Origin: Rhizobium sp. BK316
Lineage (GTDB): Bacteria > Pseudomonadota > Alphaproteobacteria > Rhizobiales > Rhizobiaceae
Reading direction: 5' to 3'
Length of the DNA stretch: 64,000 nt
NCBI RefSeq assembly: GCF_014193695.1
Contig: NZ_JACHZR010000001.1
Coordinates: forward strand, 409,309 to 473,308
The notes under the pieces were generated by a model. It saw nothing but the letters and a program-made list of their open reading frames with translations. It was not told the DNA's origin and made no database searches. Shown here in pieces: positions 11,400 to 49,396 of this stretch (within the stretch, counting starts at the first letter, position 1; each line of letters starts with the position of its first letter). A program made the translations under genes and the position numbers.

Positions 11400-12476
11400 T
11401 TAGAACGCACGCTGCAGACGGAAGTAACCCGTCGTGGTGTCGTCGCCATCTTCCGGATCCAGCCACTGGACGGAAGCCTTGGCGTAGAAGTTTTCGACGA
11501 TCTGGTAGTCAACCGTCAAACCGGCCTTCCAGGCATCGCCGAGACCGTCGAAGTTCTCCGGAACATCCGTGCCGCCGCCGAAGTAGTTGCCGTAGTACTG
11601 AACGCCGGGGGTGATCTTCAGCTTGTCCGTTGCCTTGATGGCGTATTCGCCAGCAACTGCCCATTCAGCCGACGAGTAGTAGGAGTTCGGGCCGCTGGAG
11701 TAGACAACAGCGAGGCCGAGCGTGCCCGGGCCGAGTTCAGCCGTACCCATAGCGCGGATTGCGCCGTCTTCGTTGTCGAAGTCCCAGCCGCCGGTGACCT
11801 GGTAGCTGAAGGCGCCGGCCGTACCGCCGATGCCGAAGGCAACGCCGACGTTGTTCGGACCATCGTCCGGAGTGAAGACGGTGGTGCCATCGGCGGCGGT
11901 AGCAAAGGTGCCCTGGTAGACGCCGTCTTCCAGTTCGTCGACGCTGAGGCCAGCGTAGAAGGTACCGGTTTCGTACTGATAACGGATCGAGTTATGCAGC
12001 GTTACGACGGAACCGATGTCGTCCGTTTCGCCGGAGAGACCATCGTCCCACCAGGAGTAGAAGAGACCAGCGCGGAAGCCCGCGACGTCGAGGTAAGCGG
12101 AGTCGAGGATCGTGTCCTGGTCCGTTGCGTTGTCGGCGTTGGCCTGGAAAACGATCACGCCGGTGAGCGGGCCGTATTCGGTGTCGCTCTTGGCCGTGAA
12201 CTGAACCTGACCGCGGGTTACAGCATCCCAGCTGGAGTCGTTGGTGGCGGGGGTGCCGCCGGCGTTCGGGCCGACGTTAACCTGGAAACGGATGTAGCCT
12301 TCGATCTTCAGGCAGGTTTCCGTGCCCGGGATGTAGAAGTAGCCGGTGCCGTAAGCGTCGCAGACGCGAACGTATTCAACCGGTTCCGGCTCGGCAGCAA
12401 CGATTGCGTCTGCTGCGAATGCCGGTGCAGCGATGAGGGCCGCTGCGGAACCAAGCAACATCATACGAATGTTCAT
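11400..12476 (-). CDS. Outer-membrane porin (Porin_2 / RopA type)
   Basis: A 358-residue beta-barrel porin. A Sec signal peptide ends at AAPAFAA (about residue 21). The mature start includes EYVRVCDAYGTGYFYIPGTE and a second Cys soon after, the cysteine pair typical of rhizobial Porin_2 proteins. Alternating beta strands with many Gly/Asp/Asn turns follow, and the protein ends in an aromatic, RLQRAF, as needed for outer-membrane insertion. It allows passive entry of small hydrophilic solutes. The start is fixed by AGGAG upstream of 12476 and the signal peptide. Confidence 0.92.
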   Translation of the reverse strand: MNIRMMLLGSAAALIAAPAFAADAIVAAEPEPVEYVRVCDAYGTGYFYIPGTETCLKIEGYIRFQVNVGPNAGGTPATNDSSWDAVTRGQVQFTAKSDTEYGPLTGVIVFQANADNATDQDTILDSAYLDVAGFRAGLFYSWWDDGLSGETDDIGSVVTLHNSIRYQYETGTFYAGLSVDELEDGVYQGTFATAADGTTVFTPDDGPNNVGVAFGIGGTAGAFSYQVTGGWDFDNEDGAIRAMGTAELGPGTLGLAVVYSSGPNSYYSSAEWAVAGEYAIKATDKLKITPGVQYYGNYFGGGTDVPENFDGLGDAWKAGLTVDYQIVENFYAKASVQWLDPEDGDDTTTGYFRLQRAF

Positions 12477-12990
12477 GGAAAGCCAATCTCCTAAGTTCGA
12501 GTGCGTTCCACGAAAGAACGTCCCCTCCAATTAAAGCCCGATCAATTCGGTAAGGCCTAAAATAACCGAAAGACGGGAGGGCTCAACATTGAATGCTCTC
12601 ATTTTACAGAGAATTCTAACTAAACCGCCATGTGTGTGACAGAAGTACAACACTCCTTGGGCGGGTATTAACGAGAGGTAAAGTAGAGTGGCGAAATATC
12701 GCTATTTTAGTACGACTTACCCGGATTGGCCGAGCGCGAATGGGTTACAGGTGGTTGTCGCCTGAATGCTGAATCTATCGAATATCCTGCTGCTGCGAGC
12801 CTGTATTTGCCCATCTGCACGGGCTGCCGTGAGAAAATGCGGCTGGAAAATAGGCATTAGCTGGCAGGCGGCGCCGCCATTCGACCCTGCCGCAATTCGA
12901 TTCTGAGCGATGATTCGCGGCCGCCGAGGCAAGCCTCGCCAAAACATACCCGACTCCAAAGGAGGCGCTTCTGTTTCGCGTCTAGGAAAC
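12477..12990. other. Intergenic stretch without a gene
   Basis: About 510 bp between the porin start and the end of the amide operon. The porin-proximal half is AT-rich and should hold its promoter and leader. At 12925-12938 there is a short perfect stem (CGAGGC / GCCTCG) without a T-run. I see no coding frame with convincing composition. Confidence 0.6.
12559..12586 (-). promoter_or_regulatory. Possible porin promoter
   Basis: On the minus strand TTGAGC and TATTTT are spaced by 16 bp and would start transcription about 75 nt before the porin ATG. The match to the housekeeping consensus is moderate. Confidence 0.4.
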
Positions 12991-14667
12991 TCAAACCTGC
13001 GCTCGCCGCGCTTCCGGATCGGGGATCGGAACGGCAGCCATCAGGGCCTTCGTGTAATCCTCTGCCGGATTTTCGAAGATTTGGCGGCGGGTGCCGGTTT
13101 CGACGATCCTGCCGCTGCGCATGACGGCAACCTTATGGGACATGCGTTCGACGACTGCCATGTCATGCGAGACGAAGAGGTAGGAGAGCCCCATGCTTTC
13201 CTGCAGTTCCAGCATGAGGTCGAGCACGCGGGCGCGGACGGACACGTCGAGTGCGGCAACGCTTTCGTCGGCGACGATCAGCTTCGGCTCGAGCGCAAGG
13301 GCGCGGGCAATGCAGATGCGCTGGCGCTGGCCACCGGAGAATTCATGCGGATAGCGCGTGGCGGCATCCGCCGTCAGGCCGACGCGGCGCAGGAGTTCCG
13401 CGACCCTGTCGCGCCGCTCGGATTTACTGGCGATGCCATGAATGACCAATGGTTCGGCGATTGCGGTCCCGACCGCCATGCGCGGGTCGAGCGAGGCATA
13501 GGGGTCCTGAAAGATCATCTGCGCAGTGCGGCGTATCGGCTGCATTGCGCGATGGCTGAGGCCTGCAATATTGCGGCCGTCGATGATCACATCGCCCGTG
13601 AAGGGGATGAGGCCGAGTACAGCCTTGCCGGTCGTCGATTTTCCCGATCCGCTTTCGCCGACGAGGCCAAGCGTTTCGCCCGGCAGGATATCGAAGGAGA
13701 CGTCGCTAACGGCCGCAGCCGGCGCCTTGCCCTTGAAGAGAAGGCTTGCCGCACTGCCATAGGTGACGTTGAGGCCACGCACATTCAGGACCGGGGTGTG
13801 GTCAGGATGCAGGGTTTCGACGTTGCGTGACGTGATGCGCGGCGGACTATCCGTGCCGGCAAAAGCACCAAGGCGCGGCACGGCCGAGAGCAGTTGCTGC
13901 GTATAGGTCTGGCGCGGTGCGCGGAAAATAGCGATTGCCAGGCCTTGCTCGACGATGCCGCCATTCTGCATGATGATGACGCGGTCGGCCATCTCGGCGA
14001 CGACGCCCATGTCATGGGTGATCAGGATAATCGAGGTGCCGAATTCCGACTTTAGCTCGCGCATGAGTTTGAGGATCTGCGCCTGCACCGTCACGTCGAG
14101 CGCCGTCGTCGGCTCATCGGCGATCAGCACCTTGGGACGGCAGGACAGCGCCATAGCGATCATCACGCGCTGACGCATGCCGCCCGAGAGCTCATGTGGA
14201 TATTGCTTCAGCCGCCGGGCCGGATCAGTGATCTGAACGGCATCGAGCATCCGCAGCGCGGTCGCCTCGGCATTCTCGCTGCCCTGATGTTCGCGGATCG
14301 CTTCCGTCAACTGCGCGCCGATCGACATGACAGGGTTGAGCGACGTCATCGGTTCCTGGAAGACCATGGCGATATCGCCGCCGCGCACGCTGCGCATGGC
14401 CCGGTCGGAAAGTTTCAGCAGATCGCGCTCGCCGAGCACGATGTTGCCGGAGGAAACCTGGAGCGAGGTCTTCGGCAGCAATCCCATGATCGACAGCGAC
14501 GTCACCGACTTGCCCGAGCCGGATTCTCCGGCCAGGCAGAGTGTTTCGCCGCCGGCGAGATCGAAGCTGATATCTTTGAGAACCGGTTTGCGTCCATCAG
14601 GCGTTCGCGCATCGACGTTGAGATTGCGAACGCTGAGGATAGGCGCGGCGGGCATGGCTTCGATCAC
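12991..14667 (-). CDS. Dipeptide/oligopeptide-type ABC transporter, fused double ATPase (DppD-DppF)
   Basis: A 558-residue protein with two complete ATPase domains, equivalent to fused DppD and DppF. The first has Walker A GESGSGKS (residues 47-54), signature [15 protein letters not shown] and Walker [14 protein letters not shown]. The second has [12 protein letters not shown], signature [15 protein letters not shown] and Walker [14 protein letters not shown]. Both sites look active. It ends the amide operon and would energise the permeases at 17318-19089. The start is a GTG at 14667 with a 4-bp overlap with the amidase stop; an ATG at 14655 is the alternative. Confidence 0.92.
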
Positions 14668-15608
14668 GCGAATACGATCCTCGGGAAGTAGAAGGAAACG
14701 ACCCAGTTCGGCATGTCGACGATTTCGCTGATGCGCAGATCGCCGCAGACCGAGCAGAGCAGATAGGCGTCCACTGCGCTCATCCCGTGCTCCGCCGTCA
14801 GAAGATCGATCATACGCATCACGCTTTCACGCGCGCTTGTCATCAAATCCGGGCCGATGCCGGTGGTGACTTCGTAGCCGGCGCCGTCGAGATGGCGGGT
14901 GACAGGTTCTGTCGTCGTAAAGCGAGGCGTCTGCAGGCGTGCATCCTTGACGAGCTCGATCGTTGCCTCGACATTCATCTGGCTTTCGATCGCCGTACCG
15001 CAGACCTCGCCGTCACCCTGAGCGGCGTGTGTGTCGCCGATGGAAAAAAGCGCGCCCTCAACCTCGATCGGTAGATAAAGAGTGACGCCGGCGGTCAGGT
15101 CACGGATATCCATGTTGCCGCCGACGCGGCGCGGCGGCACGACGGAATGCGTGCCGGGCTCGGCAGGGGCAACGCCGATGGTGCCGGCAAAGGGCTTCAG
15201 CGGCACACGGCCGCCGGGGCCGTAGAGGGCTGGTGTCATGCTGTTGGCGTCATAGGACCAGACATGCAGCGCCGGATCCTTGAACTGGTCGGCGAGCAGG
15301 CCGAAACCCGGAATATTGGCCGTCCAGCCGGTGCCCGAGGGAATGAATTTGCGCAGCGTCACTTTCAGCGCATCACCGGGCTGCGCCCCCTCCACATAGA
15401 TCGGGCCGGAAACCGGATTGATCTTGTCGAAATCCAGATTGTTCAGCGTATCCAGCGTTGCATCGCCGCCGAGCTGGCCACCGGAGGAATCCAGGCATTC
15501 GAAATGAATGGTCTCGCCGGGTTTGGCGACGACGGCGGGTGCGAAATCCTTGTTCCAGCCGAAATTATGCTGGGCGCGGTGAATGGTGTGGGTGCAGGCA
15601 ATGCACAT
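14664..15608 (-). CDS. Acetamidase/formamidase family protein (FmdA/AmdA)
   Basis: A 314-residue amidase of the FmdA_AmdA family, unrelated to the nitrilase-type formamidase at 5189. Recognisable blocks are the N-terminal HNFGWN, GGQLGGDATLDTL, the GPIYVEGAQPGDALKV block and GDTHAAQGDGEVCGTAIE, the metal-binding core of the family. The reaction expected is hydrolysis of a short amide such as formamide or acetamide to the acid and ammonia. It is encoded inside an operon with the AmiC/AmiR amide sensor pair and a dedicated ABC importer, which supports an amide substrate. It belongs to the cytoplasm; no signal peptide is seen. Confidence 0.9.
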   Translation of the reverse strand: MCIACTHTIHRAQHNFGWNKDFAPAVVAKPGETIHFECLDSSGGQLGGDATLDTLNNLDFDKINPVSGPIYVEGAQPGDALKVTLRKFIPSGTGWTANIPGFGLLADQFKDPALHVWSYDANSMTPALYGPGGRVPLKPFAGTIGVAPAEPGTHSVVPPRRVGGNMDIRDLTAGVTLYLPIEVEGALFSIGDTHAAQGDGEVCGTAIESQMNVEATIELVKDARLQTPRFTTTEPVTRHLDGAGYEVTTGIGPDLMTSARESVMRMIDLLTAEHGMSAVDAYLLCSVCGDLRISEIVDMPNWVVSFYFPRIVFA

Positions 15609-15631
15609 AAGGTGTCTCCCTCGATTTTATG

Positions 15632-15658
15632 ATGCCTTCCCGGCGGCCGGGAAGGCAT
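15632..15658 (-). other. Intercistronic hairpin behind the amide receptor gene
   Basis: A perfect 12-bp stem (ATGCCTTCCCGG / CCGGGAAGGCAT, 3-nt loop) lies between the receptor stop and the amidase start. No T-run follows on the minus strand. Such structures commonly stabilise the upstream mRNA and raise receptor levels over the downstream genes. Confidence 0.75.
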
Positions 15659-15672
15659 TGTTTCCTTAAGGT

Positions 15673-17292
15673 TTATTGCTTCACATAGATCGCGTCGTAA
15701 TTGATGACGCGCGTCGGATCGATATAGATATTGTCAGCACCGCCCATTCGCAGCGACTTGGCAACGACGCGACGTTCATTGATGACGGGAACCCACGGCG
15801 CATCGGCCATGATATCGGTGAAGACCTTGCCCCAGGCAGCGGTGCGTTCTGCGGACTTTGCCGGATCGGACATGGAGTCGGCCGCTACAGCACGCTTGTC
15901 GAGATCGGCGTTGCAGTACCAGGACCAGTTCCAACCGCCCTGAACCGCGCCGGCGCAACCAAGGATCGGGCCGTAGAAGTTCGACGGATCCGGGAAGTCG
16001 GCAATCCAGGCCATGCCGCCCGACCAGATCATCGGCGCCTCGCCTTCTGTGCCGCCGGCCGAGATGACATTGGCCTGTGCGAGAGCACGAATTTCGGCCT
16101 TGACGCCGATGGCGGCGAGATCCTGCTGGATCGCCTGGGCGATACGCGGCTGCGGATCAGTGTTGGTCGAGTAGAGCACCGTTTCGAAGCCATCCGGGAA
16201 GCCTGCTTCCGCGAGCAATGCCTTGGCCTTGGCAACATCATAGGCATAGCCGGTGAAGGACTTGTCGTAGCCCGGCATCAGCGGCGGCAGCGGCTGGTTG
16301 GCAGGTGTGGCGCGGCCGTTCAGGATGCGGGTGATGCGTTCCTTATTGATGGCCATATTGACGGCCTGGCGCACCTTCACATTGTCGAAAGGCTTCACCT
16401 TGGTGTTCAGAGTGATGTAGCCGGTGTGAAGCTGTTCGCCGTCGACGATCATCTGCGGGCCGTCGGCAGAGTTCTTGATTTCCAGGAATTTCGCTGGCGG
16501 GATGCCGTCGCCAGCGATATCGACTTCACCCTTCTGCAGGCGCAGCAGCGCGACCAGCGGCTCCTGGCCCACTTCGACCTTGAAGCTGTCGATATGCGGC
16601 ATGTCCTTGACGAAGTAATCCTTGTTGCGCTCGAAAACGAGCTGCTGGCCGATCGTCCAGTCTTTCAAGATAAAAGTGCCGGAGCCAACAGGCTTTTTGC
16701 CGAAATCGCCGCCGGCGGCATCGACGGCTTCCTTCGGCACGACCGATGCGAAGTTGATGGCGAGAACATGTAGAAAGGTTGCGTCCGGACGCGACAGGTG
16801 GAAGATCACCGTGCCGTCATCGGGCGTTTCGATGCCCGAGAGTGTCTCGGCCTTGCCGCCTGTCTCATCATCGAAGCCCTTGATAGCGCCGAAGAAGCCT
16901 GCACCCGGTCCCTGGGTCTTCGGATTGACGGCCCGTTCGATCGAATATTTCACGTCCGAAGCGACAACTTCGCGACCGTTCGAAAACTTCACGCCCTTGC
17001 GCAGCTTGAACGTATAGGTGAGGCCGTCAGGCGAAACGGTAAAGCTCTCGGCAAGCGAGGGAACGAGGTTCGGCGTACCCGGCTCGTAGTCCATCAGGCG
17101 GGAATAGAGGCTCTTGATCATCGACCAGTTGACCCAGTCATAGCCGATGGCCGGGTCGAGCGTGGTGATGTCGTCTTTATAGGTAACGACAATATCGCCG
17201 CCCTGCTTGGGCGTTTCCTGTGCCGTGGCGGCGAGCGGCGCGAGCGCCACCATCGTTGCCATGGTTGTGTGTCGAAGCCAGCGTTTGAACAT
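15673..17292 (-). CDS. ABC transporter substrate-binding protein, family 5 (peptide/nickel type)
   Basis: A 539-residue periplasmic receptor of the SBP_bac_5 class. A Sec signal with core MATMVALAPLAATAQ ends near residue 24. The mature part has GGDIVVTYKDDITTLDPAIG, a typical start, and the class block FTFKLRKGVKFSNG appears near residue 95. In the amide operon it probably delivers an amide or amidated peptide-like compound to the Dpp-type permeases. The start at 17292 is set by GAAGGGGAA upstream and the signal peptide. Confidence 0.9.
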   Translation of the reverse strand: MFKRWLRHTTMATMVALAPLAATAQETPKQGGDIVVTYKDDITTLDPAIGYDWVNWSMIKSLYSRLMDYEPGTPNLVPSLAESFTVSPDGLTYTFKLRKGVKFSNGREVVASDVKYSIERAVNPKTQGPGAGFFGAIKGFDDETGGKAETLSGIETPDDGTVIFHLSRPDATFLHVLAINFASVVPKEAVDAAGGDFGKKPVGSGTFILKDWTIGQQLVFERNKDYFVKDMPHIDSFKVEVGQEPLVALLRLQKGEVDIAGDGIPPAKFLEIKNSADGPQMIVDGEQLHTGYITLNTKVKPFDNVKVRQAVNMAINKERITRILNGRATPANQPLPPLMPGYDKSFTGYAYDVAKAKALLAEAGFPDGFETVLYSTNTDPQPRIAQAIQQDLAAIGVKAEIRALAQANVISAGGTEGEAPMIWSGGMAWIADFPDPSNFYGPILGCAGAVQGGWNWSWYCNADLDKRAVAADSMSDPAKSAERTAAWGKVFTDIMADAPWVPVINERRVVAKSLRMGGADNIYIDPTRVINYDAIYVKQ

Positions 17293-17317
17293 TAGGGTTC
17301 CCCTTCTTTGGTTGCTG

Positions 17318-18238
17318 TCAACGTGTGCGGATGCGTGGATCGATGAGCGGCGCCACGAGATCGGCAAGCAGATTGCCGATGACGATGGCGAGCGCCGACG
17401 TCAGCGTGACGCCCATGATGATCGGTATGTCGACCTGCTGGATTGCCTGCCAGGCGAGCTGGCCGATGCCCGGCCAGCCGTAGACGGCCTCGACGACGAC
17501 CACGCCACCCATGAACTGGCCGATATCGATGCCGATCATGGCGATGATCGGCAGGATGGCGTTCGGCAGGGCGTGGCGGAAGATGATGCGGCGCGAGGAC
17601 AAGCCCTTGGCGCGGGCAGTGCGGACATAGTCCTGATTGAGCACGTCGATCATCGCCGATCGCACCATGCGCGCATACCAGCCGGCGCCGAGGACGCCGA
17701 GGGTGGAAGCCGGCAGCACGACATGGGCGAACGTGCCGTAACCACTCATGGGCAGCCATCCGAGCGTTACGGCAAAGACATAAAGAAGCAGCAGGGCGAC
17801 GACGAATTGCGGTGCCGAAACTCCGACGAAGGAAGCCATCATGACAAGCCGGTCGACGAAACCGCCGCGGCGCACGGCAGCAATCGTGCCGAGTGTCAGG
17901 CCGAGTACCACTTCCACCAGGACGCCGGTGAGCATCAGCATCAGTGTTGCTGGCAGGCGGGCGACGATCAGCGTCCAGACCTCAGTCTTCTGTGCGTAGG
18001 AACGGCCAAGATTGCCATGCACGAGATTGGCGAGATAGGTGCCGAACTGCACGAGAAGCGGCTCGTCGAGGCCGAGCTCATGACGGATGTTTGCGACCGT
18101 CTGCGCCGTGGCGCTGCGACCGGCGATCATGCGCGCCGGATCGGCCGGCAGTGCGTAGAGCAACACGAAGGTGATGGCGGCAACGCCGAGAAGAATGAGG
18201 GCAGCCTGCACCAGCCGACGGAGGATGAGGAAGAACAT
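17318..18238 (-). CDS. Dpp/Opp-type ABC permease (DppB family)
   Basis: A 306-residue permease with a first helix in the N-terminal 30 residues and a large periplasmic loop, as usual for DppB. The cytoplasmic EAA loop that docks the ATPase reads DYVRTARAKGLSSRRIIFRH. It pairs with the DppC-like product of the preceding gene and is joined to it by a TGATG junction. It is 25 bp before the receptor gene. Confidence 0.92.
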   Translation of the reverse strand: MFFLILRRLVQAALILLGVAAITFVLLYALPADPARMIAGRSATAQTVANIRHELGLDEPLLVQFGTYLANLVHGNLGRSYAQKTEVWTLIVARLPATLMLMLTGVLVEVVLGLTLGTIAAVRRGGFVDRLVMMASFVGVSAPQFVVALLLLYVFAVTLGWLPMSGYGTFAHVVLPASTLGVLGAGWYARMVRSAMIDVLNQDYVRTARAKGLSSRRIIFRHALPNAILPIIAMIGIDIGQFMGGVVVVEAVYGWPGIGQLAWQAIQQVDIPIIMGVTLTSALAIVIGNLLADLVAPLIDPRIRTR

Positions 18239-19089
18239 CAGCCTCTCCCGCGCTGAGTCGGATCGATAATATCGCGCAGTGCATCTCCGACGAGATTGAA
18301 GGAGAGCGCCGTCAGCAGGATGATCGCGCCGGGGAAGAAGACCAGCCAGGGGGCCGCCTGGAAGTAACTCTGGCTCTCAAAGATGATATTGCCCCAGGAC
18401 GGCTGCGGCGGCTGCACGCCGATGCCGAGGAAGGAAAGGGTTGCTTCAAGCAGGACGGTCGTTGCGATGCCAAGCGTGCCCCAGACGATTGCCGTTGGAA
18501 CGAGATGCGGCAGGATATGCAGGAAGAGCACACGCATATGGCCGGCACCGAGCGAGCGCTCGGCCATGATGAAGTCGCGCTCCACCAGCCCGCGCGTCTC
18601 CGTATAGACGATACGGGCGACCTGCACCCAATTGACGAGCGCAATCACCATGGCGACGATCCAGAGGCTCGGCCGCAGCAGCGCGGCGAGCACGATCGCC
18701 AGCAGCAAAGCAGGGAACGCCATCATCAGATCGGTGAAGCGCATCAGGATATTGCTGACGAGACCGCGCATGTAACCTGCGAGGATGCCGATGAAGAGGC
18801 CGATCGCCACCGCGATGCCATTGGCGACAAGGCCGATGACCAATGAGGTCCGCGCACCGAAGAGCATGCGCGAAAAGAGATCGCGGCCGAGCGTATCCGT
18901 ACCGAGCAGATAGGGGCCGCCCGGCGGCAGTGGCGCGCCTTCCAGCGACAGGCCGTCGAACATCTGCTCATCGGGGTTGAATGGAGCGACCCAGGGTGCG
19001 GCCATCGCAAGGGCGATGACGACGAGCACAATGATGAGGCCGAAGAGGGCGGTGGGCTGCCGCAGCATGGCTTTGATCACACGCATCAT
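18238..19089 (-). CDS. Dpp/Opp-type ABC permease (DppC family)
   Basis: A 283-residue permease with DppC features: an early GTDTLGRDLFSRMLFGAR motif after the first helix, and an EAA loop around ERDFIMAERSLGAGHMRVLF. It forms the heterodimeric channel with the DppB-like protein. Its start overlaps the amiR stop by 4 bp, so transport and regulatory genes are translationally coupled. Confidence 0.92.
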   Translation of the reverse strand: MMRVIKAMLRQPTALFGLIIVLVVIALAMAAPWVAPFNPDEQMFDGLSLEGAPLPPGGPYLLGTDTLGRDLFSRMLFGARTSLVIGLVANGIAVAIGLFIGILAGYMRGLVSNILMRFTDLMMAFPALLLAIVLAALLRPSLWIVAMVIALVNWVQVARIVYTETRGLVERDFIMAERSLGAGHMRVLFLHILPHLVPTAIVWGTLGIATTVLLEATLSFLGIGVQPPQPSWGNIIFESQSYFQAAPWLVFFPGAIILLTALSFNLVGDALRDIIDPTQRGRG

Positions 19090-19667
19090 CCGGCCTCCGG
19101 CAGGGGTTCTATGCCGCCGAGGATGAAGGCGGAGATCTGTTCCATCGGCAGGCGGCGACGCATGGCGCAGTTGCGCAGGATCGAATAGGCGCGTTCCTCA
19201 TCAACCCCATGCGCCTGCATCAGTTTTTCGACGGCGGCATGGACGAGCGGACGCAGGCGCACGCGCTCTTCGAGATATTGCAGGCGTTCAGCCACGCTCT
19301 TGCGCTCCTGATGAACGGAGACGGCCATGACGAGGGCTGGATAGACAGCAGAGGCAGCAATCGGCTTGGCGACGATCGCGCCGGCGCCCTGGGCCAGCGC
19401 CCAGGCAATGCGACCCGGCGCTTCCGAACCGAGCAGCGCAACGACGGGGCATGTCGGGGCGCTGCCGCTCCATGGCATGAGATCGTCAAAGCCCTGGTCG
19501 GCATCGACGATGACGATGTCGGGCACGCTTGCTGCAGAAAGCGGCGCCCATTGCAAGGTGGCTGAGAGGCCGAGAAGCCGGAGTTGGCGTATCAGTTTTT
19601 CCGTATTGCCGTCCTCACGATGCAGGACGACGGCATGCCAACCGGTGAAATTGGGTGTCTCCTTCAT
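19086..19667 (-). CDS. amiR: ANTAR-domain antiterminator (AmiR)
   Basis: A 193-residue RNA-binding regulator. Residues 1-120 look like a degenerate receiver domain, with DIVIVDADQGFDDL in the position of the phospho-acceptor strand. A coiled-coil linker (VAERLQYLEERVRLRPLVH) leads into a C-terminal ANTAR domain: KLMQAHGVDEERAYSILRNCAMRRRL matches the three-helix ANTAR pattern (Ala/Tyr, Leu, Arg core). In the known Pseudomonas system AmiC sequesters AmiR until an amide binds, then AmiR prevents termination in the leader. Both genes here overlap by 4 bp, and the leader has the expected terminator. Confidence 0.85.
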   Translation of the reverse strand: MKETPNFTGWHAVVLHREDGNTEKLIRQLRLLGLSATLQWAPLSAASVPDIVIVDADQGFDDLMPWSGSAPTCPVVALLGSEAPGRIAWALAQGAGAIVAKPIAASAVYPALVMAVSVHQERKSVAERLQYLEERVRLRPLVHAAVEKLMQAHGVDEERAYSILRNCAMRRRLPMEQISAFILGGIEPLPEAG

Positions 19668-20797
19668 GATACTACCCGCAATTTCGGCAAAGCCGGCTTA
19701 TTGCGGCCGGTCAAATAGGGATCTGCGGCAAGCGGCGGGCGGGATGCGATCACATCGAAACCGTTCTGGGTATTGATACGGCCGAGATGGAAGGGCAGGG
19801 CGGCATGGTTCGTTTCCTGGTCGATGTTGAGCGCGCCGAAGGGTGTCGCCCAGCTCTTGCCATGGAGTTCCCGACGCACGGCGGAGGGCTCGTCCCCACC
19901 CGCAGCCACAATCGCATCGACGCAAAGGCGCATAGCCGTGTAGGCGCTGGCAAAGACGCTCGAGACGCGGCGAGGCGCGCCATAATGAGCGACGATACGC
20001 TGCTTGAAATCGATATTCTCGGAGGTCGCGACGCTGTCAAAGTAGGAGGCTGCACAAAGCTGGCCGATCGCAGCGCCCGGCGCGATATCGTCAAGCTCAC
20101 ATTCCATCAGGTCGCAGCTGACGACAGGGCAGTTTTCGGGCCGGAAGGCGGCGTCTCGATCGGCAAGCCGACGGATTGCCTCATGGAAGGCGTAACTCGA
20201 TGGGCCGATCAGATTGTTGAGGATGAAACTCGGGCGGCGCTGCTCGATATCGGCGACGATGCGCTCGACCGCGGTCTCTTCGAGCGGCAGGTAGCGTTCG
20301 CCGAGCACTTCTCCGCCCGCATTGGCGATCAGTTCGCGGGCGAGCCTATTCATCTCCCAGCCCCAGACATAGTTGGCGCCGACGAGATAGGGACGGTTGC
20401 CATAACGCGGAATCAGATGCTCGAAGAGCGGCAGCAGATGCTGGTTGGGGCAGCCACCGACATAGATGACGTTCTCGTTCGCCTCGAAACCTTCGTAGGG
20501 GCACATGTACCACAGCAAACCGTCATGCTTCTCGATGACCGGGATGACCTCCTTGCGCGCGGCGGAGGTGATCGTGCCGACGATGTGGCGGCAGCCGTCG
20601 CGTAATAGATGCCGGGCGCCGTCGAGATAGGCAGCAAGATCGGCCTGCGGATCGAAGAAAACCGGTTCGACCGAACAACCGCTCGCTGCGGCAAATTCGG
20701 CGATTGCGAATTCCGCGCCGTCGCGTGCGTCACGCCCCATCGAGCCGTAGGGACCCGTGGTCGAGTAAAGAATGCCGATTTTCAAAGCATCATTCAT
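19664..20797 (-). CDS. amiC: Cytoplasmic amide sensor (AmiC-like)
   Basis: A 377-residue type-I periplasmic-binding-fold protein without a signal peptide, as in AmiC, the amide-responsive repressor of AmiR. The N-terminus reads KIGILYSTTGPYGSMGRDARDG cut to its core GILYSTTGPYGSMGRDA, and CPYEGFEANENVIYVGG matches AmiC and the urea/short-amide receptors. It is the first gene of the operon. The start at 20797 is preferred: an ATG at 20824 lies inside the leader hairpin. Confidence 0.85.
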   Translation of the reverse strand: MNDALKIGILYSTTGPYGSMGRDARDGAEFAIAEFAAASGCSVEPVFFDPQADLAAYLDGARHLLRDGCRHIVGTITSAARKEVIPVIEKHDGLLWYMCPYEGFEANENVIYVGGCPNQHLLPLFEHLIPRYGNRPYLVGANYVWGWEMNRLARELIANAGGEVLGERYLPLEETAVERIVADIEQRRPSFILNNLIGPSSYAFHEAIRRLADRDAAFRPENCPVVSCDLMECELDDIAPGAAIGQLCAASYFDSVATSENIDFKQRIVAHYGAPRRVSSVFASAYTAMRLCVDAIVAAGGDEPSAVRRELHGKSWATPFGALNIDQETNHAALPFHLGRINTQNGFDVIASRPPLAADPYLTGRNKPALPKLRVVS

Positions 20798-20818
20798 TTG
20801 TAAGCCAAAAACCAAAAA

Positions 20819-20859
20819 CCCCATGAGGGCATCCCGTCAGCGACGGGGCCGTCATGGGG
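20819..20859 (-). terminator. Leader terminator before amiC
   Basis: On the minus strand, an outer 8-bp stem (CCCCATGA / TCATGGGG) encloses a perfect 6-bp stem (CCCGTC / GACGGG, 3-nt loop) and is followed by TTTTTGGTTTTT. It lies 21 bp before the amiC ATG, so it should stop transcription before the operon unless prevented. Position and shape match the leader terminator that AmiR overrides in Pseudomonas. Confidence 0.75.
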
Positions 20860-20886
20860 CGAAACTGCCCAGCGACTATCGAAGTC
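20857..20886 (-). promoter_or_regulatory. Possible antiterminator hairpins (ANTAR target) in the amiC leader
   Basis: On the minus strand a stem GGGC / GCCC with six-base loop AGTTTC (20857-20870) shares bases with the outer arm of the terminator, so the two cannot both form fully. A second small hairpin (GACT / AGTC, five-base loop) lies just upstream at 20874-20886. Two small hairpins, the second competing with the terminator, is the known ANTAR target design. The loops do not show the published A1/G4 pattern, so the exact contacts are uncertain. Confidence 0.5.
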
Positions 20887-20927
20887 ATGTAAAAATGCGG
20901 GGTTCTCTGCCTAATCCGCAGGCTTGA

Positions 20928-20956
20928 ATAAAATACAGGCACTCCTGTTTTGTCAA
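20928..20956 (-). promoter_or_regulatory. Sigma-70-type promoter of the amide operon
   Basis: On the minus strand TTGACA (20951-20956) and TTTTAT (20928-20933) are 17 bp apart. Transcription would begin near 20921 and give a leader of about 125 nt containing the hairpins above. Confidence 0.65.
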
Positions 20957-21034
20957 GCGCGCCTCAAGCGAATTCTGGGCAGTCGGGCAAGATCAACGAC
21001 TGCACGCAACTAGCCCTGGAAATCAGCCAATATA

Positions 21035-21184
21035 TTAGCCTAATCCAGGCATGGCGTGGCGCGACACGCGCATACGCTCGATGATGTGATGGCCGGAGCC
21101 GCCGACATGTTTGGCGATGGCCTGAGCGGCACCTTCGACATCCTGTGCCTTGATGCAGGCGATCAGCTCGCAATGGTGAAACTC
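21035..21184 (-). pseudogene. C-terminal remnant of a GntR-family (FCD) regulator
   Basis: The minus-strand frame reads EFHHCELIACIKAQDVEGAA, then a HVGGSGHHIIERM ending, about 49 residues. This is the typical last part of an FCD ligand domain, where a histidine pair and the sequence AA.AI..HV recur. No winged-helix part or start exists; upstream in this frame the DNA belongs to the end of the GH95 gene. It is best read as the 3' stub of a regulator gene lost by deletion, with the junction near the GH95 stop at 21163. Confidence 0.55.
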
Positions 21185-23397
21185 TCTCCGGCGGCGAGAT
21201 CGATCTTGCATCGTGTTTCGCCGAAGCGAAGGATCGTGCTTACATCTCGCGATGCTGTGAGCTTGATCTTCACCGGCCGGCCATTCTCCCAATCGAGGTC
21301 GAGAAGCACACCGCCGCGTGCCCGCAAACCGCGCAATGAGCCGCGCGGCCATGCCTTGGGCAAAGCCGGGAGCAGGTGAATTTCGCCTGGGCGCGACTGC
21401 ACCAGCATTTCCAGGATGCCGGCGGTCCCACCGAAATTGCCATCGATCTGGAAGGGCGGGTGGGCGTCGAAGAGATTGGTGTAGGTTCGCTCGGGGCTGA
21501 TGAGCAGCTTGATCACATCGAGCGCATGATCGCCGTCGCGTAGCCGCGCCCAGAGATTGATGCGCCAGCCGATACCCCAGCCCGTCGCATCGTCACCGCG
21601 GATTTCCAGCGAACGGCGGGCGGCCGCGGCAAGCTCCGGGGTCTTGTCCATGTCGATCTGCCAGCTCGGATAGAGGCCGTAGAGATGCGAGACGTGGCGG
21701 TGATGCATCTCCGGCGCCTGCAGGTCCCAGTCTTCCAGCCATTCCTGCAACTGGCCTGCAGATCCGATCCTGTCGGGCGGCAGGCGCAGCAGGATGCGGT
21801 CGATCTCCGAGACGAGCGCATCCTCGCCGCCGATGGAGGTGGCGACGGGCCGAAGCAGATTGAGAAAATCCCGGATGATCTGGCTATCCATGGCCGGCCC
21901 CGCACAGAGCGAGGCGCCGTGCGGGTGGACATTCTCAGGTGAAAGCGAGGGGTTCGTCACCAGATAGTTCGTGCCCGGAAGCGGCACAAGTACATCGAAG
22001 ACAAACTCTGCAGCCCCCTTGGCAAACGGAAAGAGCCGCCGGCGCAGGCCATCGGCATCATCAAGATAGTCCGCAAGATCGAGCAGTTGCGCCATGAGCC
22101 AGGCGCCGCCGGTCGGCCACAGGCCCCATTTGGCACCGTCGATCGGTCCGGTCGCGCGCCAGAGATCAGTGTTGTGGTGCATAACCCAGCCACGGGCGCG
22201 ATAATGCACCTGCGCCGTCTCGCGGCCAGTTTCGGCAAGCTCTTCCGCCATTGCGACAAGCGGTTCGATGCATTCCGGCAGATTGGCCGGAGCCGGCAGC
22301 CAGTAGTTCATCTGCAGATTGATGTTGGCCGTATATTTGCTGCCCCAGGGCGGATCGGTTTCATCGTTCCAGATGCCCTGCAGGTTGGCAGGCTGTGTGT
22401 CGGGGCGCGAAGAGGCGATCATCAGATAGCGGCCGAACTGCACATAGAGGGCGGCAAGTGCGGGATCATGTCCCCCGGCATAACCCGCAATGCGGCGATC
22501 GGTGGTCTCGACGGCGGCCGGCGTCGTGCCGAGATCGATGGCAAAGGAACCGAAAAGCTTTTGATGTTCGGCCATATGGTCCCGGCGCATAATCTCGTAG
22601 CTGCGGGCAGAGGCCTTTGAAAGACGCGCCGAGATGGTGCCGTCCGGATCGCCGGAGACATCGTCATAACGCCGGAAGCTCGTCGCTGCATCGAGCAGGA
22701 TCACAAGCTCGTCGGCATCGTCTACGGAGATGCCATTGGAGAAACTCAGCATTCCTCCCTTGTTGATCACTCGGATGCCAAAGGCGAAGCGCAGGGCGCC
22801 GGCAATGCCCCACTCGGCCTTGCCGGTGCCGGAAAAGGTCAGTTGCGAGGCTTGTCCTGCGACCAGTTGACCTTGTTGCGGGCTGTCGAGCGATATCCGG
22901 CATTTTATGGAGCGGGGTCGATCGGCCGAAAGGCGCAACACAAGCACGCCGTCGACGGCGGAAATGAAGGCTTCGCGAAAAAAGGTCGTGCCATCGGCGA
23001 CATAAGAGGTCGCTGTGATTGCGGTGTCGAGATCGAGCATGCGGCGATAGCTCATCGCGGTATGCGAATGCAGGAAGTCGATATGGAGATCGCCGATCGG
23101 CTGGTAGGACATCTGCTTGATCGGCCGGGCCATAAGATGCTCCTCGGCCATTGCTTCTGCTTGCGCATAGTGCCCGGCGAATATCAGCTCACGTACTTTT
23201 CCGAGATGGCTGTAGGCATCGGGATTGACCGGCCGGTAAGGGCCACCCGCCCAGAATGTGGATTCATTGATCTGCAGCCTTTCTGAAACCGGAGCGCCAA
23301 ACACCATCGCGCCGAGCCGGCCATTGCCGAGCGGCAGCGCGTCTGTCCAGAGCCGGGCTGGCGCATCGTACCAGAGAAGATTGTCCACCATGGTCAT
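21163..23397 (-). CDS. Glycoside hydrolase family 95 protein (alpha-L-fucosidase type)
   Basis: A 744-residue enzyme without a signal peptide. The N-terminal domain starts with WYDAPARLWTDALPLGNGRL, GAMVFG and INESTFWAGGP, the classic GH95 opening. The (alpha/alpha)6 barrel carries HHNTDLWRATGPIDGAKWGL and later FQIDGNFGGTAGILEML, containing the Asn and Asp residues used in the inverting mechanism of GH95. Family enzymes cleave alpha-1,2-linked L-fucose, some L-galactose. It ends the operon, overlapping the ATPase gene by 4 bp. Being cytoplasmic, it should act on an oligosaccharide already imported. The end is close to the GntR remnant, but no catalytic block is missing. Confidence 0.85.
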   Translation of the reverse strand: MTMVDNLLWYDAPARLWTDALPLGNGRLGAMVFGAPVSERLQINESTFWAGGPYRPVNPDAYSHLGKVRELIFAGHYAQAEAMAEEHLMARPIKQMSYQPIGDLHIDFLHSHTAMSYRRMLDLDTAITATSYVADGTTFFREAFISAVDGVLVLRLSADRPRSIKCRISLDSPQQGQLVAGQASQLTFSGTGKAEWGIAGALRFAFGIRVINKGGMLSFSNGISVDDADELVILLDAATSFRRYDDVSGDPDGTISARLSKASARSYEIMRRDHMAEHQKLFGSFAIDLGTTPAAVETTDRRIAGYAGGHDPALAALYVQFGRYLMIASSRPDTQPANLQGIWNDETDPPWGSKYTANINLQMNYWLPAPANLPECIEPLVAMAEELAETGRETAQVHYRARGWVMHHNTDLWRATGPIDGAKWGLWPTGGAWLMAQLLDLADYLDDADGLRRRLFPFAKGAAEFVFDVLVPLPGTNYLVTNPSLSPENVHPHGASLCAGPAMDSQIIRDFLNLLRPVATSIGGEDALVSEIDRILLRLPPDRIGSAGQLQEWLEDWDLQAPEMHHRHVSHLYGLYPSWQIDMDKTPELAAAARRSLEIRGDDATGWGIGWRINLWARLRDGDHALDVIKLLISPERTYTNLFDAHPPFQIDGNFGGTAGILEMLVQSRPGEIHLLPALPKAWPRGSLRGLRARGGVLLDLDWENGRPVKIKLTASRDVSTILRFGETRCKIDLAAGESFTIAS

Positions 23398-45578: not shown

Positions 45579-46877
45579 TTACGAAGCGGCCTTGATGGAA
45601 AGGCTGTCGAGATAGGCAGACGGGTTTTCCGGATCGAAGACCTTGCCGTCGAAGAAGGTCTCCTTGCCGCGCGACGGCGAGGCCGGAATATCGGCCGCAG
45701 CAACGCCGAGGTCCTTTGCGGCGTCGCGCCAGATGTCCTCGCGGTTCACCTTGTCGACCAGCGCCTTGATGTCCGTATCGGGCGCGAGTTTGCCCCAGCG
45801 GACGTTCTCCGCCATGAACCAGGTATCGTGGCTCTTGAAGGGATAGGAGACGCCGCCAGCCCAGAACTTCATGTAGAGGTCCGTGCCATGGGCGACTCGG
45901 CCATTGCCGTAGTTGATGTCGCCCTTCAGGCGGCCAAGCACATCCTTTGGCGGTACGTTGAACCATTGCCGCTTGCCGAGGATGGTCGCCATTTCCTCCT
46001 TGTTGTCCATGCTGTCGCACCATTGTTGGGCTTCCATAATGGCCATCAGCAGGGCCTTGGCGGCATTCGGGTTCTTTTCCACCCAGTCGGCGCGCATGCC
46101 GAGGGCCTTTTCCGGATGGCCTTTCCACAATTCGCCGGTCGTTGCCGCTGTGAAGCCGATGCCCTGGTTGACGAGTTGCTCGTTCCAAGGTTCGCCGACA
46201 CAGAAGACGTCCATGTTGCCGACCTTCATGTTCGCCACCATCTGCGGGGGCGGCACGACGACGGTCGAGACGTCCTTGTCCGGATCGATGCCGCCAGCGG
46301 CGAGCCAGTAGCGGATCCAGAGATCATGGGTGCCACCGGGGAAGGTCATGGCGGCTTTCACCTCCTTGCCATCGGCCTTCTTCTTTTCGAAGGCGGCCTT
46401 CAGCTTGGAGGAGTCGAGCTGGACGCCGGTATCGGCATATTCCTTGGCGACCGAGATGCCCTGGCTGTCGTAGTTCAGACGTGCCAGCAATGCCATCGGC
46501 ACCGGCTGGTTGTTCTGGGTCACCTTGCCGGTGTGCATGAGATAGGGCAGCGGCGAGAGGATATGGGCGCCATCGATGCCGTTGGCCGCGCCGCCGAGAA
46601 CCAGATTGTCACGCGTTGCCCCCCAGGAGGCCTGCTTCGCCACATCGACTTCAGGAAGGCCGTGTTTTTCGAACAGACCCTTTTCTTTGGCGACGATAAG
46701 TGGCGCTGCATCTGTCAGGGCGATGAAACCAAGCTTGACGCCGGTCACTTCGGGTGCGGCTGCAGCGGCGAAGGCGCCCGAAGGAAATGCCGTCCGAACA
46801 GCGCTCACGAGGGCTGCTGCTGCGGTGGTCTTCAGCATGCTGCGACGGCTGATCGCGGTCGTGAAAATCTTGGTCAT
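45579..46877 (-). CDS. nrtA: Nitrate ABC transporter substrate-binding protein
   Basis: A 432-residue periplasmic nitrate receptor of the NrtA/CmpA family. A Tat signal is clear (SRRSMLKTTAAAALVSA near residues 10-26). The mature protein has GVKLGFIALTDAAPLIVAKE and FPGGTHDLWIRYWLAAGGID, which includes nitrate-contacting residues in the family. It is the first gene of the structural operon and is preceded by a leader with a terminator and a sigma-54 promoter. Confidence 0.95.
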   Translation of the reverse strand: MTKIFTTAISRRSMLKTTAAAALVSAVRTAFPSGAFAAAAAPEVTGVKLGFIALTDAAPLIVAKEKGLFEKHGLPEVDVAKQASWGATRDNLVLGGAANGIDGAHILSPLPYLMHTGKVTQNNQPVPMALLARLNYDSQGISVAKEYADTGVQLDSSKLKAAFEKKKADGKEVKAAMTFPGGTHDLWIRYWLAAGGIDPDKDVSTVVVPPPQMVANMKVGNMDVFCVGEPWNEQLVNQGIGFTAATTGELWKGHPEKALGMRADWVEKNPNAAKALLMAIMEAQQWCDSMDNKEEMATILGKRQWFNVPPKDVLGRLKGDINYGNGRVAHGTDLYMKFWAGGVSYPFKSHDTWFMAENVRWGKLAPDTDIKALVDKVNREDIWRDAAKDLGVAAADIPASPSRGKETFFDGKVFDPENPSAYLDSLSIKAAS

Positions 46878-46993: not shown

Positions 46994-47059
46994 TTTTGTG
47001 AGCGCTTATTACGCACCCATCCTGCGCCCGGTCGCCGTTGACCGGTACGATTTTAGCCC

Positions 47060-48558: not shown

Positions 48559-49146
48559 TCACATCAAAAGCCCCGCCGCCGTGACGACGCTCTGGGCGAT
48601 GTCGGACATTTTCTTCTTCTCGTTCATGGCCGTCTGGCGAAGCAGTGCGAATGCCTCTTCCTCCGACAGTCCACGCATCTTCATCAATATGCCCTTGGCG
48701 CGTTCCACCACTTTGCGTTCTTCGAGCGCCGATTTGGCGTCGGCAAGTTCGCGCTGCAGTCGGCTGAAGGCATTGAAGCGGCTGACCGCCATATCAAGAA
48801 TGGGTTTGACACGCTCCTTCTTCAACCCGTCGACGATGTAGGCCGAAACGCCCGCATCCACTGCGGCCTCGATGGAGGCCGTGTCGGAACGGTCGACGAA
48901 CATGGCGATCGGCCGGCCGACCGTGCGGGTCAGCTGGAACAGATGCTCCATCATGTCGCGATTGGGGTTCTCGATATCGATGATGATGACATCGGGCCGT
49001 AGCGTATCGATGATGCGCGCCACGCCCTGAACCTCGTGAATGACAGTCACGCGCGCGTGGCCAGCCTCCCGCAGCCCCTCTTCGATGATGGAGGCGCGAA
49101 TGGTATTTTCATCGATCACTAGAATGGTCAGATCGAGCCGGCTCAT
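48559..49146 (-). CDS. nasT: Nitrate-responsive ANTAR antiterminator NasT
   Basis: A 195-residue regulator. Residues 1-120 are a receiver-like domain (LTILVIDENT, then PDVIIIDIENPNRDMM). A helical linker leads to the ANTAR domain at about 140-190, ERKVVERAKGILMKMRGLSE and FALLRQTAMNEKKKMSDIA, with the conserved Ala, Leu and Arg residues. NasT binds leader RNA to let transcription pass a terminator. The target here should be the nrtA leader. Gene order is nasT then nasS, the reverse of the usual nasST. Confidence 0.9.
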   Translation of the reverse strand: MSRLDLTILVIDENTIRASIIEEGLREAGHARVTVIHEVQGVARIIDTLRPDVIIIDIENPNRDMMEHLFQLTRTVGRPIAMFVDRSDTASIEAAVDAGVSAYIVDGLKKERVKPILDMAVSRFNAFSRLQRELADAKSALEERKVVERAKGILMKMRGLSEEEAFALLRQTAMNEKKKMSDIAQSVVTAAGLLM

Positions 49147-49396
49147 TGCGCATTTATGACGCAGCGCAGCAAAGTGCACAAGCAAAAAAGGCAAAATTTT
49201 AGGCATAAATACATAATGATAAAAAAATGATCATTTTGCTTTATATCCGTGCAGCATCTGATCCGCGTATGGGCCTTTGAAAACAGGCCGCAACATCCAT
49301 GCCCTTGTCGGCCACTGCGCTACCTATGCCTCAGTATAATGCACGGCCCGATCCATCGCTGTTATCGTCGGGCGATCTTGAAGACGGAGAACGAAG

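Follow-up and report, generated by a model that had tools for sequence, protein, structure and literature searches.

Transcription antitermination by ANTAR proteins has precedents in the accessible parts of PMC3369931, PMC8934654 and PMC7496416. As far as the accessible text of PMC3369931 and PMC7496416 goes, both hairpins of the target RNAs, the amiE leader included, are C:G-closed hexaloops with an A at position 1 (A1) and a G at position 4 (G4). In the EutV-RNA structure G4 was the sole base-specific contact; it stacks on Tyr164 and bonds Arg142, Lys149 and Glu160, and Met172 serves as a plug (PMC8934654, accessible parts).

We analysed a 64 kb stretch of DNA (the window), which is part of a 6.36 Mb genome and contains both ANTAR proteins of that genome. 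Like the AmiC-AmiR/amiE system of Pseudomonas aeruginosa, one locus in the window has an AmiC-like sensor, an AmiR-like ANTAR protein, and a hexaloop hairpin with a terminator before the operon. Unlike that system, the window operon starts with amiC and has an Opp-type importer and an FmdA-family enzyme. The amiE leader is described as carrying A1 and G4 in each of its two hairpins (PMC3369931, accessible parts), whereas the window leader has a hairpin P2 without G4 and a hairpin P1 with no such hexaloop. With the targets of EutV, NasR and NasT it shares a C:G-closed A1 hexaloop overlapping the terminator, the two structures being mutually exclusive; in contrast to them, the window clade lacks G4, P1 usually lies 4 nt or less from P2, the P1 loop is unconserved and an extra ACAU is present. 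The plasmid amiC-amiR-ABC transporter-amiE operon of Enterobacteriaceae also has AmiC, AmiR and an importer in one acetamidase operon, a likeness drawn from the genes alone, but its amidase is AmiE (PMC13209695, accessible parts).

The amiC-amiR operon

The genes lie on the minus strand in the order amiC-amiR-oppC-oppB-SBP-fmdA-oppDF, and amiC starts at 20797:

19664..20797, minus strand: amiC (Peripla_BP_5/6), resembling P. aeruginosa AmiC and urea-binding proteins
19086..19667, minus strand: amiR (AmiR_N and ANTAR), with a 4 nt overlap with amiC
18238..19089, minus strand: oppC-like permease
17318..18238, minus strand: oppB-like permease
15673..17292, minus strand: family 5 solute-binding protein, its start picked by eye within the ORF 15673..17367
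14664..15608, minus strand: enzyme of the acetamidase/formamidase family (FmdA_AmdA), scoring under the NCBIfam FmdA cut-off
12991..14667, minus strand: fused OppDF-type ATPase

An earlier note on this DNA had stated that the operon carries AmiC and AmiR, and the domain searches agreed, finding AmiR_N and ANTAR in AmiR. These two matches were moderate (40 and 44 bits, respectively) and both exceed the Pfam cut-off. The top PDB match of the window AmiR was 1qo0_D, and AmiC also matched PDB 1pea. The gene for an AmiC-type amide/urea-binding sensor adjoins amiR, and AmiR combines a pseudo-receiver AmiR_N domain with ANTAR; by its predicted proteins the locus is an AmiC-AmiR system. The ABC importer plus amidase that had also been proposed held in part: an importer and an amidase-family enzyme are present, but the enzyme is not an AmiE-type one; it belongs to the FmdA/AmdA (acetamidase/formamidase) family. 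What the importer carries is uncertain, as it is Opp/Dpp-like.

Overlaps of 1-4 bases were observed between the ORFs of amiC/amiR, amiR/oppC, oppC/oppB and fmdA/oppDF, which fits a single transcription unit. The nearest relatives carrying amiC and amiR were Rhizobium and Rhizobiales isolates. A scan of species genomes gave 156 relatives, of which the best 80, with an AmiC identity of 69-94%, were used. Among these best 80 of 156 the gene order of the window, importer and amidase-family enzyme included, was kept at 77 of 80 loci; at the remaining 3 the final genes were absent from the sequence stretch compared. The operon and its leader are also present in R. johnstonii (leguminosarum) 3841, a laboratory strain, on pRL11, and no published expression of the R. 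leguminosarum operon was found in the accessible parts of the literature searched. In four of five relatives compared, amiR (19086..19667) was the least identical of the seven conserved operon genes; in L060 its identity was 69%, compared with 82-95% for the neighbouring genes.

Anatomy, conservation and folding of the leader

The earlier note had read a promoter, hairpins and an intrinsic terminator on the minus strand ahead of amiC, with bases shared between the hexaloop hairpin and the outer terminator arm. Both readings were confirmed, the shared bases being 20860-20857:

20927..20956, minus strand: promoter, with TTGACA at 20956-20951 and a weak -10 (TTTTAT/TTTATT) at 20933-20927
20909..20923, minus strand: 5' hairpin P0, GCCT-GCGGATT-AGGC
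20887..20890, minus strand: ACAU element, immediately 5' of P1
20874..20886, minus strand: hairpin P1, GACT..AGTC (GAC(U)..(A)GUC), 3 nt 5' of P2
20857..20870, minus strand: hexaloop hairpin P2, GGGC-AGUUUC-GCCC, the presumed AmiR-stabilised antiterminator
20814..20860, minus strand: intrinsic terminator and U-run, the outer arm common to P2

On the minus strand P2 is composed of GGGC (20870-20867), the C:G-closed loop AGTTTC (20866-20861) and GCCC (20860-20857). The outer terminator arms are CCCC (20859-20856) and GGGG (20822-20819), followed by a T-run (20818-20814) and the amiC ATG at 20797. The loop of P1 in the window is 5 or 7 nt long (UCGAU/UUCGAUA). All 80 relatives (best 80 of 156) carry a TTGAC box upstream of amiC; the leader promoter went unreported in a simple scan of 12000-23000 for promoters. 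The 5' arm of P0 overlaps the likely transcription start, so P0 may be partly outside the RNA. An alternative 5' hairpin, TGCGG..CCGCA at 20896-20920, is mutually exclusive with P0, and by eye both of its arms seem changed in some relatives (e.g. L050, L054, L067). A DNA dyad in the spacer (ACAGG..CCTGT) was considered and rejected, being not kept in relatives such as L044.

When both strands of the 64 kb window were scanned for C:G-closed hexaloops overlapping a terminator, 8 sites were detected, and the terminator stem of the amiC leader was the longest among them (12 pairs compared with 7 to 9). No match at gathering score was obtained from Rfam anywhere in the window; for 20700-21050, with E values up to 5 allowed, the single match had an E value of 0.22, far under its cut-off.

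The leader, with terminator and competing hairpin, was present in 80 of 80 relatives (best 80 of 156). In the alignment of these with the window (A1, 81 rows) 95.4% of the terminator cells were paired and 91 two-sided changes were counted, while versions of the terminator slid along the alignment reached at most 52.4% and 21. For P1 and P2 the paired cells amounted to 98.8% and 100% of the same 81 rows. Variation in P2 was confined to the outer one of its four pairs, where both bases had changed in 3 rows; scored together for covariation, P1 and P2 (0.065) did not exceed one slid version (0.107). We concluded that the terminator is backed by covariation, and P1 and P2 by conservation. The check that had been suggested beforehand, covarying stems in relatives, thus came out positive for the terminator helix but not for P1 and P2, which hardly covary, P2 being mostly invariant. 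In P0 85.2% of cells were paired, with 17 two-sided changes in the 81 rows, and slid versions reached 44.1% or less; its covarying pairs and pair types were matched by 48 and 105 of 500 shuffles.

The loop of P1 varies freely in length (4-9) and sequence, while P2, ACAU and the terminator are mostly constant. ACAU was found just before P1 in 85 of 95 leaders of the window's own AmiR clade (clade A, see below), compared with 14.9 expected from shuffles, and in 13 of 29 leaders of clade B, compared with 4.0, all counts being inflated by kinship.

None of 200 shuffles was predicted to fold as stably as the whole leader (z -2.85), and none as stably as the isolated terminator segment (z -3.36). 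The stretch ahead of the terminator, with just P1 and P2, had no such advantage (z 0.40 and -0.20): 129 and 79 of 200 shuffles folded equally well. P2 and the terminator are mutually exclusive. In the growing transcript P2 was favoured, with a probability of 0.76-0.96, until the last terminator arm emerged. For the isolated segment from ACAU to the U-run the terminator fold gave -35.7 kcal/mol, compared with -30.4 kcal/mol when P2 was enforced, a gap of 5.3 kcal/mol; in the whole window leader the cost of enforcing P2 was just 1.2 kcal/mol, and the probability of P2 dropped to 0 and then climbed to 0.23 at full length. The freed GGGG is able to pair with an upstream CCCC in the window leader, a partner not seen kept in the relatives compared. 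As P2 is favoured early and the terminator wins at full length, P2 is a metastable competitor, which would require help in order to win.

Loop letters and AmiR across clades

For comparison we added 99 AmiC/AmiR loci from other genomes (L167-L265), reading the loops with a finder whose picks do not depend on the loop letters; L209, L257 and L258 were dropped as no AmiC or AmiR was obtained. The groups A, B and C (classic) were set by our own thresholds of AmiR identity to the window, 48% and 35.5%. Clade A (n=95) holds the window, the best 80 of 156 relatives and 14 more loci. Clade B holds 32 loci with 36-47% AmiR identity; L221, L227 and L261 had no site, leaving 29, and the sites of L210, L216, L220, L224 and L259 were chosen by eye, replacing an automatic pick or miss. 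The classic group has 50 loci, 18 of them without a site at 8 pairs or more.

One reading of the leader, which we consider unlikely, is that A1/G4 is a loose consensus and that the leader is read exactly as by EutV or NasR. The C:G closing pair, A1, the hexaloop P2, the terminator overlap and the G4-stacking tyrosine are all kept, as this reading would have it, and for the ANTAR RNAs of actinobacteria a conservation above 50% is described for A1 and G4, which means that there are exceptions (PMC8164766, accessible parts). The loop counts argue against it. A1 was present in the P2 loop of 95 of 95 clade A leaders and G4 in 0 of 95 (position 4 was T in 66, A in 28 and C in 1), across 17 different loops, and 80 of the 95 have no G at position 4 or 5. 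In clade B, A1 was found in 28 of 29 leaders, G4 in 4 (L235, L241, L259, L260) and G5 in 20. The best sites of the classic loci, in contrast, have G4 in 27 of 32; the five without it (L177, L200, L207, L208, L229) are in keeping with a loose consensus. In the antisense control on the same 50 classic loci 6 sites were found, 2 with G4, and with a laxer cut all loci together gave 110 sense and 23 antisense sites.

The P1 hairpins also speak against a canonical target, as no A1/G4 hexaloop was found among 94 clade A or 28 clade B picks; 6-nt loops occur in 16 of the 94, none with A1 and G4. A distance of 4 nt or less between P1 and P2 was seen for 87 of 94 picks in clade A and 18 of 28 in clade B, kinship again inflating both counts. 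The leader thus has the C:G-closed hexaloop overlapping the terminator, and A1 in P2, but lacks G4 in P2 and an A1/G4 hexaloop in P1. Since these two defining features were looked for and are missing, we did not file it as a canonical dual-hexaloop RNA. The earlier note had remarked that the loop departs from the A1/G4 pattern, perhaps as a variant recognition code; the departure runs through the whole clade, and the idea of a variant code is supported in comparative terms.

The AmiR tree was built with 37 of the 95 clade A rows (the window, 22 taken at random from the 80, and the 14 others), 32 of B and 50 of C. Clade A was recovered as one clade (100/100) inside A+B (branch 99/100). L222 and L225, labelled C, fall on the A+B side. 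Support is weak at some forks of the A+B base (81/56 to 97/91). The four clade B rows that have G4 split off close to this base, moderately supported. By parsimony one G4 change suffices for A and B alone (66 rows), which again argues against a loose consensus, and four are needed with the classic rows (98 rows). From the tree and these counts, the loss of G4 is shared and, as far as parsimony goes, single within A+B.

A further point against a canonical reading comes from the window's second ANTAR protein (48559-49206), which lies 1.5 kb upstream of another leader, before the ORF 45579..46877:

47028-47045, minus strand: canonical A1/G4 hairpin CCGGTC-AACGGC-GACCGG, in the leader before the ORF 45579..46877 and followed by a terminator-like region

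The protein is called NasT-like by its position beside nirB, a nitrate-importer ATPase and a nitrate-reductase-like gene. The ORF is nrtA-like by position alone and gave no NCBIfam match at E 1e-20. This leader is likely a NasT-controlled nitrate leader. In one genome, an ANTAR gene thus lies near a canonical loop, AACGGC, and another beside a non-canonical loop.

In clade A AmiR the equivalents of EutV R142, R168, M172 and R175 are kept in 95 of 95 proteins each; Y164 corresponds to Y in 94 and F in 1, and E160 to E in 82 and D in 13. Lost are K143 (94 P), K147 (87 A) and K149 (81 V, 12 I), and none of the 95 clade A and 32 clade B proteins has a Lys at EutV position 149. The loss of K149 was rejected as an explanation for the loss of G4: 17 of 18 classic site-bearing loci without Lys149 have G4, compared with 10 of 14 with it.

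Within the classic group, the position of EutV Met172, reported to be essential for RNA binding, is Thr in 18 of 50 AmiR proteins (e.g. L168, L172-L176, L178). Wherever a Thr172 protein comes with a site (17 cases), the loop is T....A with G4, and T1 and A6 could pair across it; such a loop was seen in 2 of 15 best sites of Met172 proteins. The 18 Thr172 rows form one clade (99/96), so they may represent one event. Many classic loci (e.g. L173, L178, L190, L202) have a hexaloop and terminator after amiR, ahead of the next genes, and some (L182, L187, L190, L194, L204) have them before amiC.

Since G4 is missing throughout the clade of this P2 loop, AmiR probably reads P2 differently from EutV or NasR. 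We give an even chance to the proposal that one alphaproteobacterial AmiR lineage rewrote the ANTAR code, with a single loss of G4 on A+B, P1 as a sequence-free structural hairpin near P2, and recognition via A1, the P2 stem and perhaps ACAU. No description of the amiC leader or of a G4-less AmiR clade was found in a literature search that mostly covered papers open without subscription, and main texts without supplements.

Control of the operon

We consider it quite probable that the amiC leader is an autogenous attenuator, acting by AmiR-dependent transcription antitermination under the control of AmiC. RNA polymerase would start near 20920, and the nascent RNA would fold P1 and then P2. As long as active AmiR is missing, the CCC(C) of P2 would be captured by the terminator's 3' arm, and the full terminator hairpin would abut the U-run and end transcription before amiC. 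On binding its ligand, which is probably a small amide or a nitrogen compound related to one, AmiC would free AmiR. The freed AmiR, the presumed factor, would hold P2 and thereby remove the G:C base of the terminator, and polymerase would read through into amiC, amiR and the importer and amidase genes, giving a self-amplifying loop.

It is very unlikely, in our view, that the leader is a fixed attenuator or a ligand-binding riboswitch independent of AmiR. Its high conservation would suit such an RNA, and the binding of AmiR is itself deduced; the lack of an Rfam match at gathering score in the window, and the free variation of the P1 loop beside a mostly constant P2, ACAU and terminator, argue otherwise, as does the distribution of the leader. 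A covariance model (R1) was built from alignment A1 and searched over 394 family genomes with stricter filters, under which weak copies may be missed. R1 matched 34 of 394 genomes with one match each, and these are exactly the 34 with an AmiC of at least 67% identity (one gene split in two counted). By coordinates every match sits just upstream of amiC, and none was found away from amiC among the 394 genomes under these filters. Many of the R1-positive genomes are sources of the alignment, so the fresh information comes from the 360 genomes without a match.

An out-of-sample test was done with 10 of the 14 clade A loci outside A1, drawn from L239-L263, and R1 matched 10 of 10, with E values of 3e-13 to 4e-6 for nine distant loci and 8e-22 for the nearer L263. 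The pRL11 leader of R. johnstonii 3841, which is close to alignment rows, was matched at E 4e-22. Of six clade B loci, L235, L241, L238 and L219 gave E values of 0.007 to 0.4; L228 and L223, and the classic L190 and L173, were not reported in this search.

Leader-peptide attenuation, in which a short ORF from an ATG at 20888 would run through P1, P2 and the terminator and the ribosome position would decide termination, is hardly credible and was rejected on frame and ATG counts and codon content: the ATG with P2 in the same frame was found in 51 of 81 leaders (the window and the best 80 of 156), but 11 have no ATG, 18 have another frame and 1 was unplaceable, and in the window no Shine-Dalgarno-like sequence precedes the ATG and the peptide has no single-codon run able to sense a nutrient.

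Searches that require A1/G4 in both loops would probably miss these nitrogen-scavenging operons. A clade that lacks G4 and keeps the stacking tyrosine and the methionine plug makes the G4 rule of EutV directly testable. The clade poses the questions of which base, if any, flips out, and how antitermination works with one hexaloop, and the leader offers a route to learning how RNA recognition codes change.
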